Assembly: GCA_016871275.1 (NCBI GenBank)
Contig: VFZG01000033.1
Coordinates: forward strand, 1 to 43,567
DNA length: 43,567 nt
Source: Acidimicrobiia bacterium
GTDB taxonomy: Bacteria > Acidobacteriota > Vicinamibacteria > Vicinamibacterales > UBA2999
Direction: 5' to 3'
Below are positions 30,405-35,376 of this stretch, piece after piece; position 1 is the stretch's first letter; every line of letters begins with the position of its first letter. The notes beneath the pieces are model-generated. The model saw only the letters and a list, made by a program, of their open reading frames with translations. It had not been told where the DNA came from and made no database searches. The position numbers were made by a program, and so were the translations under genes.

Positions 30405-30405
30405 A

Positions 30406-30444
30406 CGAGGGTTCTGCGCGAGGATTCTGCACGAGGGTTCATCG
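30406..30444. repeat. Three 13-base tandem repeats
   Basis: CGAGGGTTCTGCG and two variants, head to tail, covering the -15 to -55 region relative to the amidohydrolase start. It could hold regulator sites or be another micro-array. The rest of the gap to 30551 shows no gene. Confidence 0.75.
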
Positions 30445-30551
30445 CAAGCTCCGTACCGCCTGTCCAGGCGTGGCCGGCTGGCCATGCCGGTTCGGTCGAA
30501 GTCGAGGTAGCGTCAGCAACTACCTTCACTCGCTCCCGCGTGGGTCCGCCA

Positions 30552-31062
30552 ATGCCAATCATCGTGTGAAGCCTGGTTATCCTCGTCATCGCCTGTTCCA
30601 CCACTGCTGCCGCGTTCGCACAGGGCAACCCCACCGGCAGTGTCGCCGGCAAGGTCTCCAATCCGGACGGCCTGGCGCTGCCTGGCGTGACCGTCACGGC
30701 ATCGTCAGTCCCGCTTCAGGGGCTGCGCACTACGGTGTCGTCCGAAAACGGCGACTACATCATTCCGTTCCTCCCTCCGGACACACATTCGATCACCTTC
30801 GAGATCGCCGGATGCCAATCCGCGCGGCGCGACGGAGTCGCGGTGGTGATTGCCGAGACGTTGAGGCTGGATACGTCGCTGAAGGTCGCGGCAGTCACCG
30901 AAACAGTGCAGGTGACGGCGTCGGGCGGCTCCGCCGAGATTGCGCCGAACCTGACGGTCGCCAGCACCTATCCGTCAGAGACCATCAAGCTGCTGCCGGT
31001 GGGCCGCACTGTCCGTGCCGCCGTGCTGCTCGCGCCCGGTGTCACCGACAACGGGCCAGTCG
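30552..31062 (+). pseudogene. 5' remnant of a TonB-dependent receptor gene
   Basis: Reading from ATG 30552, MPIIV is followed by an in-frame TGA (30567-30569), and then SLVILVIACSTTAAAFAQG continues as an obvious signal peptide. After it comes a regulatory-like domain (GSVAGKVSNPDGLALPGVTVTASS, NGDYIIPFLPPDTHSITFEIAGCQ) and the beginning of a plug (VTETVQVTASGGSAEIAPNLTVAS, IKLLPVGRTVRAAVLLAPGVTDNGP). At about 31062 the homology stops abruptly: the barrel is missing and the next codons belong to another gene in a different frame. It is thus doubly broken, by a nonsense codon and a 3' truncation. It is not a recent copy of the two receptors at 17388-23355. Confidence 0.75.
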
Positions 31063-31546
31063 ATTCCTGCTCTTCGACATGGGCGTACGCCAACTGGCGG
31101 CGCGCGAAGGCACGCGCCTGCTTCCGGAGGGCAAGGGCGAGCTGTTCGAGCACGTCGTCGGCCTGGAGCTGATTCGCCTGTTGCGGCTCCGCCTGCCGGC
31201 GGCCAGACTTCGTTTCTGGCGCGACCCGGACGGGCCCGAAGTGGACTGGGTGGTCGAGCACCATGGGCGTTTTCCCCCGATTGAGGTGAAGCTGACCGAT
31301 CGCCCGAGCGCGCGTGACACACGGCATCTTGCAGTATGTCTCGATGAGTATCGCGCGGCGTCCGGCCTGGTGATCTGCACGGAGCCGCGGAAAGCCCGGC
31401 TCAGCCGCCGCGAATACGGTCTTTCGTCCTGTGGTACAGTGCCGGCCTTGGCGCGCGTGCGGCACGATTTCGTCGAGCAGGACTACACGGCAGGTGCCCC
31501 TGTCGAGAAGAGCCACGCTTACCTTGCGGAGCTGGGGATGAAGTGA
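31063..31546 (+). pseudogene. 3' remnant of a DUF4143-type ATPase gene
   Basis: About 160 codons starting SRFLLFDMGVRQLAAREGTRL, which matches the C-terminal DUF4143 domain of prokaryotic AAA ATPases. Supporting blocks are GELFEHVVGLELIRLLRLRL, LRFWRDPDGPEVDWVVEHHGRFPPIEVKL (endonuclease-like E-V-D and I-E-V-K motif) and YRAASGLVICTEPRKARLSRR. The ATP-binding half with its P-loop is absent, and the fragment begins at the junction with the receptor remnant. The last residues (EYGLSSCGTVPALARVRHDF) no longer look like family sequence, so a frameshift is possible. No start of its own is evident. It ends four bases before the Rieske GTG. Confidence 0.7.
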
Positions 31547-31550
31547 GCCT

Positions 31551-32171
31551 GTGGCAGACGGTGGACGGCTGACGGCCCACGGCGTACGGTCTACGGCTTG
31601 CGGCTCACAGCCTGCGGCGGACGAAGTCACGTCTCGTCGCGTAGTGCTGAAGAGGGCCGGCGGCCTGGTCCTGGCGTGGCTGACGCCGTTGGACGCCAGT
31701 GCGCAGGGCGATCAGTCGGCGCGTCCCGCCAGGGGGGACGTCCTCGTTCGTGTGGGCGATGCGACCGCCACACCGTTGACCCCGGCCGATGTGACAGGAA
31801 CCGCCGTGGTCATGGCGTGGCCCGCGACGCCGGCAGGCGTGGTGCGCAGCGGTTCACGCCTCAATCGACTGGTATTGGTCCGACTCGATCCGGCGTCGCT
31901 CGCCGAGCGCTCGCGGCCGCACGCCGCCGAAGGCGTGATGGCGTACTCCGCGGTGTGCACGCACACCGGCTGCGAAGTGGGGGCGTTTCTCGCCGACGAG
32001 CAGGTGCTCTACTGCGACTGCCACGAGTCGAAGTTCGATCCGCGGGATCAGGGACGCGTCATCGGCGGGCCGGCACCACGCAACCTGCCGGCGTTGCCGC
32101 TCACCCTCGTCGACGGACGGCTCACGGTGGCCGGCGCGTTCACCGCGCGGCCGGGTTTCGAGCAGGGGTAG
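31551..32171 (+). CDS. Rieske 2Fe-2S protein with Tat-like signal
   Basis: A 206-residue protein. The cluster-binding boxes are complete: CTHTGC (about 138-143) and CDCHESKFD (about 160-168), two Cys and two His as in Rieske proteins. The subsequent GGPAPRNLPALPLTLVDGRL is the usual third loop. Upstream, SRRVVLKRAGGLVLAWLTPLDASAQ resembles a twin-arginine signal, so export in folded form is likely. The only start ahead of SRR is GTG 31551; the first 25 residues (ADGGRLTAHGVRSTACGSQ) are translated from a heptamer array. It is followed, 76 bases later, by a PQQ dehydrogenase, and may pass electrons from it to the respiratory chain (inference). Confidence 0.85.
   Translation: MADGGRLTAHGVRSTACGSQPAADEVTSRRVVLKRAGGLVLAWLTPLDASAQGDQSARPARGDVLVRVGDATATPLTPADVTGTAVVMAWPATPAGVVRSGSRLNRLVLVRLDPASLAERSRPHAAEGVMAYSAVCTHTGCEVGAFLADEQVLYCDCHESKFDPRDQGRVIGGPAPRNLPALPLTLVDGRLTVAGAFTARPGFEQG
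31553..31622. repeat. Ten-unit heptamer array at the Rieske start
   Basis: Ten consecutive 7-base units in perfect register, consensus GGCNNAC: first unit 31553-31559 GGCAGAC, third GGCTGAC, last 31616-31622 GGCGGAC, one deviating unit at 31609 (AGCCTGC). Bases 4 and 5 vary freely while the frame of seven is kept. It begins seven bases after the stop of the ATPase remnant. Confidence 0.9.
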
Positions 32172-34570: not shown

Positions 34571-34870
34571 ATGGCAGAAGCCGAAATCCCGCAGGTCGAT
34601 CCGGCCGTTGAACAGGCGGAGGCGGTGGACGAAACCCCCGTCGAATTGCCAAGGGCCGCGCCGATTGAAAGCCGTTTTCTTTACGTGGACGTGGCGGCCC
34701 TTCGCGCCAAGCAGCTGCGCCGCGGCGCCCGCGCGCGGTTGGACCGGGTCGAAGAGCACGTCGTCGTGTCCAAGGCCGTCAAGGCCGAGCGTGTCGCCAT
34801 GGAAGAGGTGAAGCAGAACCTCGTCCTGTGGGACCTGCCCGAATTCAAGGCCGTCGTCGATATCCGGTAG
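34571..34870 (+). CDS. rpoZ: RNA polymerase omega subunit-like protein
   Basis: A 99-residue protein whose core, ESRFLYVDVAALRAKQLRRGARARL, then KAERVAMEEVKQNLVLWDLPE, follows the omega subunit pattern (xRFxLVxVAAxRARQLxxGAxP, then KxxxVAxxEIxxGxV). Omega helps assemble and stabilise RNA polymerase by latching the beta-prime C-terminus. The N-terminal 30 residues are acidic and Pro-rich (AEAEIPQVDPAVEQAEAVDETPVE), an extension relative to E. coli omega. It stands alone here, between a membrane gene and the heat-shock cluster, not next to gmk or spoT as often seen. Confidence is moderate because short proteins match by chance more easily. Confidence 0.65.
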   Translation: MAEAEIPQVDPAVEQAEAVDETPVELPRAAPIESRFLYVDVAALRAKQLRRGARARLDRVEEHVVVSKAVKAERVAMEEVKQNLVLWDLPEFKAVVDIR

Positions 34871-34932
34871 AGAAGTGAGAAGTGAAAGGTGAGAGCTTCT
34901 CACTTCTCTCTTCCCACTTCTCACTTCCTTTT
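34870..34932. terminator. Inverted heptamer arrays between convergent rpoZ and hsp20
   Basis: Nine consecutive 7-base units: four GAGAAGT-like (34870-34897), then four complementary TCTCACT-like units (34898-34925) and TCCTTTT. GAGAAGTGAGAA at 34870 pairs perfectly over 12 bases with TTCTCACTTCTC at 34897. The hairpin fills the whole gap between two convergent genes and ends in a T-rich run on the plus strand. It probably serves as a transcription stop for rpoZ and perhaps both. Confidence 0.7.
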
Positions 34933-34935
34933 GCT

Positions 34936-35376
34936 CTATGCCGCGACTTCGACATTGATCGTGCGCGGCCGCGACTCTTCGCGGAACGGCAGCGTCACCG
35001 TCAGCACGCCGTTCTTGTAGTCCGCACCAATCTTCGACGCGTCAACCGTGGACGGCAGTGAGAAGCACCGGCTGAACGTGCCATAGGCACGCTCCAGCCG
35101 ATGGAACTGATCCTGCTTGACGCCGTGTTCGGTGGTGACCTGCTCGAAATTGCGCTCGCCCTTCAGCGTCAGCGTGTTGTTCTCGAACACGACCTGAATG
35201 TCCTCGCGCTTCATGTCGGGCAATTCCGCCTTCAGCACGAGCTCCTGCTTGCCGTTCTCGAAAATGTCCACCGCCGGCACCCAGCGGCCACTTCCACCCC
35301 ACGACGCAAAGTCCGCGTCGAGGGGACCCCGGATGGTGAGCAGATCTGCAAATGGATCGAAACGTGTCATCGCCAT
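34936..35376 (-). CDS. Hsp20/alpha-crystallin small heat shock protein
   Basis: A 146-residue holdase. The alpha-crystallin domain runs from about 33 (WVPAVDIFENGKQELVLKAELPDMKREDIQVVFENNTLTLKGERN) to about 135, with the conserved ending YKNGVLTVTLPFREE and a C-terminal tail PRTINVEVAA, close to the I-x-I/V oligomerisation motif. The N-terminus (MAMTRFDPFADLLTIRG) is typical of class A bacterial Hsp20. It starts two bases after the dnaK stop, so it is co-transcribed with the truncated DnaK, and would pass bound unfolded protein to it. A second, more divergent Hsp20 lies on the other side of dnaK. Confidence 0.95.
   Translation of the reverse strand: MAMTRFDPFADLLTIRGPLDADFASWGGSGRWVPAVDIFENGKQELVLKAELPDMKREDIQVVFENNTLTLKGERNFEQVTTEHGVKQDQFHRLERAYGTFSRCFSLPSTVDASKIGADYKNGVLTVTLPFREESRPRTINVEVAA

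Follow-up and report, generated by a model that had tools for sequence, protein, structure and literature searches.

The ten tandem heptamers at positions 31,553-31,622 of the window (the whole stretch of DNA analysed here, 43,567 nucleotides of contig VFZG01000033.1) are one set among many degenerate arrays of 7- and 8-base units dispersed through this genome. The units are built of scaffold positions and free positions, with the same positions free in a distant genome, and the arrays are biased towards gene gaps and towards stop codons. We propose, from sequence comparisons and with a probability of about 0.48, that the window array is a representative of these gap-enriched and often stop-codon-associated arrays whose scaffold would be under constraint and would be read in the 3' end of a transcript or in single-stranded DNA.

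Ten in-register heptamers behind a truncated gene

The units on the forward strand (GGCAGAC, GGTGGAC, GGCTGAC, GGCCCAC, GGCGTAC, GGTCTAC, GGCTTGC, GGCTCAC, AGCCTGC and GGCGGAC) stand in register on a GGCNNAC scaffold with positions 4 and 5 free, and all ten differ from one another. Nine begin with GGC or GGT, eight end in AC and all end in C, and the unit listing and column counts thus bear out the earlier note, which had described ten phased units with constant starts and ends and a variable centre. Departures from the consensus number 1, 0, 2, 7, 6, 2 and 0 at positions 1 to 7, with 13 of the 18 falling at positions 4-5, and the corresponding entropies are 0.47, 0, 0.72, 1.90, 1.52, 0.72 and 0 bits. 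Under an even scatter of mismatches, 13 of 18 would be found in the best adjacent pair of columns with a chance of 5.5e-5, for an array that had been picked by eye beforehand. The heptamer AGCCTGT at 31,546-31,552, six of whose seven bases are identical to unit 9, could by eye be a degraded eleventh unit on the same strand. Its first base is also the last base (A) of the TGA stop codon (31,544-31,546, forward strand) that closes the upstream open reading frame in the ORF list, and the array consequently starts either 6 nt behind this stop or, counting AGCCTGT, on its last base.

The upstream ORF (30,470-31,546, forward strand) encodes in its later part the C-terminal part of a DUF4143 protein (PF13635, residues 193-275, profile positions 74-159 of 160, E 2.7e-10). 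Because the DUF4143 domain is often fused to an ATPase, the earlier description of this ORF as a broken ATPase fragment is a fair one. The ORF is an apparent junction of two gene fragments in different frames, the DUF4143 C-terminus and a carboxypeptidase-regulatory-like domain (PF13620), the latter in ORF 30,687-31,172, which overlaps the earlier part of 30,470-31,546. A 13-base tandem repeat, ACGAGGGTTCTGC, is present in 2.8 copies at 30,405-30,440.

On its other side, the array runs into an ORF of 206 amino acids for a Rieske [2Fe-2S] protein (31,551-32,171, forward strand; PF00355, E 6.9e-9), of which it encodes residues 2-24. The candidate start codon is the GTG at 31,551-31,553 in the ORF list, which is the sole in-frame ATG, GTG or TTG from the preceding in-frame stop to a twin-arginine motif; unit 1 of the array opens with the last G of this codon. 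This motif, SRRVVLK in the translation (31,632-31,652, forward strand), lies close behind the array-encoded leader and is presumably Tat-like, judging by the Tat consensus. Both arginines are kept in all five Rieske homologues read. These were the five closest loci (50-66% identity; a further close copy, G028:C28, was left out), and their alignments start at query residues 28, 13, 29, 20 and 29, so that the array-coded leader is not conserved in those five. Unrelated heptamer arrays lie upstream of the homologue at two of the five loci, one with inverted arms of CAGTNNT (L094, positions 3-94) and one of GGGACTC type (L095). One scan of a genome's contigs returned a single distant Rieske homologue and nothing bearing on the array. 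The link with the Rieske gene looks incidental, in that the array gives just the leader before the Tat-like motif; the earlier claim that it provides the Rieske N-terminus accordingly holds for a predicted leader of residues 2-24 and goes no further.

Heptamer and octamer arrays across the genome

In order to place the array in its genome, we scanned a sample composed of the window and 60 stretches of 20 kb (1,243,567 bases). With a threshold of 21 matches in 28, 42 period-7 and 38 period-8 arrays were detected, as compared to one of each in a Markov-3 control; the window array is below this threshold and thus uncounted, and was detected when 42 bases were scanned at a time. Multiples of both periods, and periods 12 and 18, were raised as well. 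Of the 42 period-7 arrays, 21 were centred in a called gene, nine in gaps between co-directional genes, eight in convergent gaps, three in divergent gaps and one at a stretch edge. Twenty of the 41 that could be placed were therefore centred outside called genes, where only 7.4% of positions lie (random positions being 91.9% coding by the same calls, made with our own hexamer-based caller), and several of the in-gene arrays are just a few bases from the gene end. As these arrays adjoin many genes, the tie that had been drawn between the window array and its neighbours on either side (broken ATPase and Rieske gene) is one of position.

The heptamer classes in this sample include GGGATCR (8 of 12 arrays inside a called gene), GAAGTGA, AGCCCGY, GGMTACT, CAGTTRC and GGRATTA. 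For seven of eight reference heptamers, mismatches were unevenly distributed over the seven positions, with P values of 5e-7 for GGGATCA, 3e-6 for GAAGTGA, 6e-15 for AGCCCGT, 2e-16 for TACTGGC, 8e-10 for CAGTTGC, 5e-32 for GGGATTA and 7e-5 for GGCTGAC, all of them rough since the references partly catch the same arrays and the units within an array are related. For the eighth reference, GGCTCAC (seven arrays), mismatches were even over the positions (P 0.64). Within a single array at L082:4582-4657, the units grade from CAGTATC through CAGCAGC to CCGTAGC and CCGCAGC, which suggests that heptamer classes may change into one another.

The window scaffold itself is rare in this genome, where one GGCNNAC array has at least three perfect units. 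When one scaffold mismatch per unit was allowed over the 1.24 Mb, GGCNNAC gave 58 three-unit arrays plus the window array (eight units by this rule) and five permuted scaffolds gave means of 62.0 three-unit, 4.8 four-unit, 1.0 five-unit and 0.2 six-unit arrays, a comparison that is not a clean null because permuted scaffolds pick up other repeat classes. In a class-agnostic scan of arrays of at least five units, with the phase set by script, P fell below 0.05 for one of 74 own-genome arrays, which is the window array (0.0167); this is no more than expected by chance over 74 tests. Since most of these arrays have only 5-8 units, tests on single arrays are weak and support comes from the pooled classes.

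Among the period-8 arrays we recognized a dispersed family, RGGCNNNY, with three free positions (for example L043:18072-18146, L083:19331-19387 and L081:15976-16020). Over 36 arrays and 167 units, chosen for GGC, the entropies at positions 1 to 8 were 1.39 (mostly A or G), 0.19, 0.18, 0.40, 1.80, 1.61, 1.89 and 0.91 bits. With free positions 5-7 on the consensus GGGCTAGC, 43 arrays were found, compared with 3-19 for the 19 other placements, and the pattern occurs at 193 overlapping places genome-wide as compared to 60 for its reverse. Twenty-one arrays have three units and 14 have four; between co-directional genes, 12 lie in the sense and three in the antisense orientation, whereas the heptamer classes offer 3-5 such cases each, too few for a strand reading. 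The family is present in four of the 43 genomes of the taxonomic family. In build it resembles the window array most, and the window units look like RGGCNNNY octamers deprived of their first base, which is a resemblance and not a test. The spacing of about two thirds of a helical turn, to which the earlier note had pointed, is not special, as 8-base units are used in this genome about as often.

Arrays at stop codons

A facing stop codon is no more than 3 nt from the edge of the array in 11 of 34 cases for 7-base arrays, with 5.6 expected when each array slides in its own gap (P 0.007), and in 11 of 30 cases for 8-base arrays, with 3.4 expected (0 of 20,000 simulations). Facing start codons within 3 nt, counted without a null, were found for 4 of 25 edges of 7-base arrays and 3 of 27 edges of 8-base arrays. 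By another measure, 12 of the 43 RGGCNNNY arrays start between -3 and +2 of a same-strand stop, as compared to 136 of 27,862 RGGC sites taken everywhere and not just in gaps. TAG or TGA occurs inside some of the RGGCNNNY units, and ORFs that run into an array may therefore account for part of the stop-codon effect.

Each family thus retains a short scaffold (GGC..AC or RGGC...Y) while two or three inner positions vary. We suggest that the scaffold would be held by a constraint that acts after the array has formed. The repeated scaffold would most likely be recognised in the transcript 3' end or in single-stranded DNA; duplex DNA is the less likely target, because spacings of 7 and 8 bases are both in use and the 8-base family shows a preference for the sense strand. 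At 31,553-31,622, the array would have grown, or been inserted, downstream of the truncated DUF4143 gene, and it now appears to supply the Rieske ORF with a start codon and with the n-region of the leader.

Positions 4-5 are also free in a distant genome

Of the 162 genomes searched in the order, 29 contain three consecutive GGCNNAC units, as do 13 of 199 genomes sampled over the phylum, eight of these 13 being among the 181 outside the order; the reversed control pattern does not provide a null, GGCANNC being itself repeated in some genomes (138 and 77 places in G159). One of the genomes outside the order, G289, carries the triple motif at 209 places. In 255,072 bases of this genome (40 contigs), 27 GGCNNAC arrays have at least three units, with exactly four in 14 and five in 4, although among those 18 the array at L217:5870-5897 is in fact of a different class, and in some arrays the last unit is a boundary box like GGCAACC. 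The entropies of 76 units, each required to match at least four of the five scaffold letters, were 0.28, 0.28, 0.45, 1.52, 1.69, 0.34 and 0.18 bits at positions 1 to 7. The uniform entropy that the earlier note had named as the result speaking against a scaffold is thus not found in a genome where GGCNNAC is common: positions 4-5 stand at 1.52 and 1.69 bits and the others at 0.18-0.45. When two free positions were set on GGCGTAC in all 21 ways, perfect scaffolds gave ten arrays for GGCNNAC and none or one for each of the others. With one mismatch allowed, GGCNNAC gave 4 arrays with three units, 12 with four and 3 with five, as compared to permuted means of 11.8, 9.6 and 1.2; because permuted scaffolds gather arrays at one mismatch, this looser count is non-discriminating and we relied on the perfect-scaffold comparison.

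In a second class of G289, AGTGACN, whose unit contains no G tract, 22 of the 30 arrays with at least three units have exactly four. In the genome of the window a preference for four units is not clear, and the window array has ten. Composite intergenic elements are found in G289 at L206:4485-4708, L218:556-838 and L201:4531-4738, consisting of four heptamers, an ARCMGCAA-like box (in left arms) and an inverted set of four, with GGCNNAC and AGTGACN sets side by side or nested.

Closer to the window genome, single 20-kb stretches from 20 relatives (376,275 bases) contained at least one period-7 array in ten of the relatives, with 27 entries in all (one being a run of N), and the period-7 habit is sporadic among them. 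The units flanking GGCNNAC in relatives (226 units) point in the same direction, with entropies of 0.90, 0.76, 0.90, 1.58, 1.99, 1.54 and 1.37 bits at positions 1 to 7, and are given little weight since the loci had been fetched by GGCNNAC, some arrays entered twice and units had to match three of five scaffold letters.

Slippage, pairing and other explanations

Such arrays could also have arisen by neutral slippage from a seed, in which case the free positions would be old mutations and the scaffold would have survived as a GC-rich anchor for re-pairing. In most genomes rich in repeats, heptanucleotides are the most frequent class, and polymerase slippage has been proposed for them (Mrazek 2007, as cited in PMC4679880); in addition, many arrays in other genomes, relatives included, consist of blocks in which the units are identical (L126, L138 and L148), as slippage predicts. 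To set against this, we simulated neutral evolution by uniform point mutation and 7- or 14-nt duplication or deletion, in a model that does not include the anchor idea. The column concentration of the window array, which had been picked by eye, was matched by 5 of 5310 simulated arrays of similar divergence, summed over six mutation to duplication ratios (4/1393, 1/1758, 0/1406, 0/600, 0/140 and 0/13). Together with the 13 of 18 mismatches at positions 4-5, this upholds the earlier argument that uniform drift fits the array poorly. The absence of any two identical units in the window array also argues against slippage, as do the ten G289 arrays in which free dinucleotides were compared, which agreed in 4 of 30 pairs of adjacent units and in 7 of 30 pairs of non-adjacent ones: adjacent units are no more alike than distant ones and there is no trace of neighbour-copying. 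No sign of recent slippage, nor of pairing between free letters (see below), is visible in G289. Slippage is nevertheless a serious rival, above all for the identical-block arrays, and we consider it possible, if doubtful, for the window array.

Constraint on a scaffold that is read in single strands could take a more specific form, which we regard as rather unlikely. GGCNNAC, RGGCNNNY, AGTGACN and others would then be putative recognition arrays, bound by a factor on the transcript or on single-stranded DNA directly behind stop codons; the factor would read the letters that stay constant from one unit to the next across several units, independently of G-quadruplexes or stem pairing, and the window array would be an enlarged example of ten units.

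Alternatively, the array might be one half of a hairpin or terminator arm, its scaffold being kept by pairing with an inverted copy. Inverted pairs of arrays do exist. In the window, inverted AAGTGAG/CTTCTCA heptamer arrays lie at 34,864-34,945, between the convergent ORFs 34,571-34,870 and 34,936-35,376, the second of which looks by eye like a small heat-shock protein. In G289, 16 pairs are convergent (six of GGCNNAC and ten of AGTGACN) and one is divergent (AGTGACN; none of GGCNNAC). Inverted convergent pairs are also described in a study on Xanthomonas, with 70 and 75 inverted cases in two genomes (PMC4692102), and heptamers form the P6b stems of the Nostoc trnL intron (PMC4476775). For the window array, however, the nearest inverted match found is 17 nt long, 82% identical and located inside the Rieske gene, and the array RNA folds about like its shuffled versions (z -1.02). 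When the arms of the G289 pairs were aligned from their outer ends, their free letters matched in 15 of 46 and 11 of 37 positions, as compared to 17.4 and 15.3 after shuffling. In the whole window, no Rfam family was matched at its gathering score. Pairing with an inverted copy is thus an improbable reason for the scaffold.

That the array acts as a G-quadruplex element, with at least four GG tracts seven bases apart, is more improbable still. Quadruplexes have been proposed for G-rich heptamers in Xanthomonas and Nostoc, and these repeats share with the arrays described here the unit length and the proximity to stop codons, and show a four-unit preference (PMC4692102). The tracts of the window array are nevertheless GG rather than GGG, and AGTGACN arrays of G289, devoid of G tracts, have four units in 22 of 30 cases. 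Finally, it is hardly credible that the array is plain coding sequence selected as a Rieske leader, for although the frame is open from the GTG at 31,551 to the twin-arginine motif, a period of 7 is not a multiple of 3 and brings the scaffold to all codon positions, and the five homologues align just from residues 13-29, two of them having unrelated heptamer arrays upstream.

Relation to published heptamer repeats

Tandem heptamers are familiar from cyanobacteria as short tandemly repeated repetitive (STRR) sequences, which the window array resembles in being made of tandem heptamers. Rehm et al. 2015 (PMC4692102) described in Xanthomonas GGGNATC and GGGANTN heptamers with positions 1-4 and 6 conserved, 89-93% of which are intergenic; for Xanthomonas and Nostoc heptamers alike they reported conserved and variable positions, a preference for four units, location in gaps and overlap with stop codons, and proposed G-quadruplexes. 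A Calothrix case is mentioned in the same paper. Like these repeats, the window array is made of 7-nt units in tandem in which certain positions are fixed, and it starts at or near a stop codon (0 or 6 nt). It differs from the Xanthomonas heptamers by its GGC scaffold, its two adjacent free positions, the lack of GGG and its ten units, and its genome, unlike theirs, holds several heptamer classes and an 8-base family. As to dispersal, the period-7 arrays of this genome are many and gap-enriched, yet 21 of 42 lie in called genes and GGCNNAC is represented by one array.

In the Nostoc trnL intron, the P6b stem contains the tandem heptanucleotide motifs TDNGATT and NNTGAGT (PMC4476775, PMC3488679). 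These are degenerate tandem heptamers with free positions, as in the window array; they are however part of one intron hairpin, whereas the window array falls outside the Rfam families and lacks a clear partner arm. MacGregor 2015 (PMC4679880) reported intergenic tandem TAACTGA heptamers in Beggiatoaceae and other organisms, with exact units which in the BOGUAY genome lie mostly just upstream of start codons; the window array shares the tandem heptamer arrangement with a different unit, GGCNNAC instead of TAACTGA. Heptameric repeats have also been dealt with in Streptomyces (PMC8780764), and mRNA structure behind stop codons in PMC7518266. Under Acidobacteria or Acidobacteriota, no paper on arrays of this type was among the matches listed by a search that left out most subscription journals. 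The arrays are of a little-studied kind with published relatives, the new elements being the GGC scaffold, the 8-base sister family and the four-unit class of G289 without G tracts.

Short tandem repeats are usually dismissed as slippage noise. Genomes in which dispersed arrays share fixed and free letters at stop codons offer a countable test of selection versus slippage, and AGTGACN of G289 suggests that G-quadruplexes need not be the cause of the four-unit preference described in G-rich heptamers. We also observed that a rotation of TAACTGA, when reverse-complemented, gives CAGTTAT, a heptamer of the L094 array that precedes a Rieske homologue.
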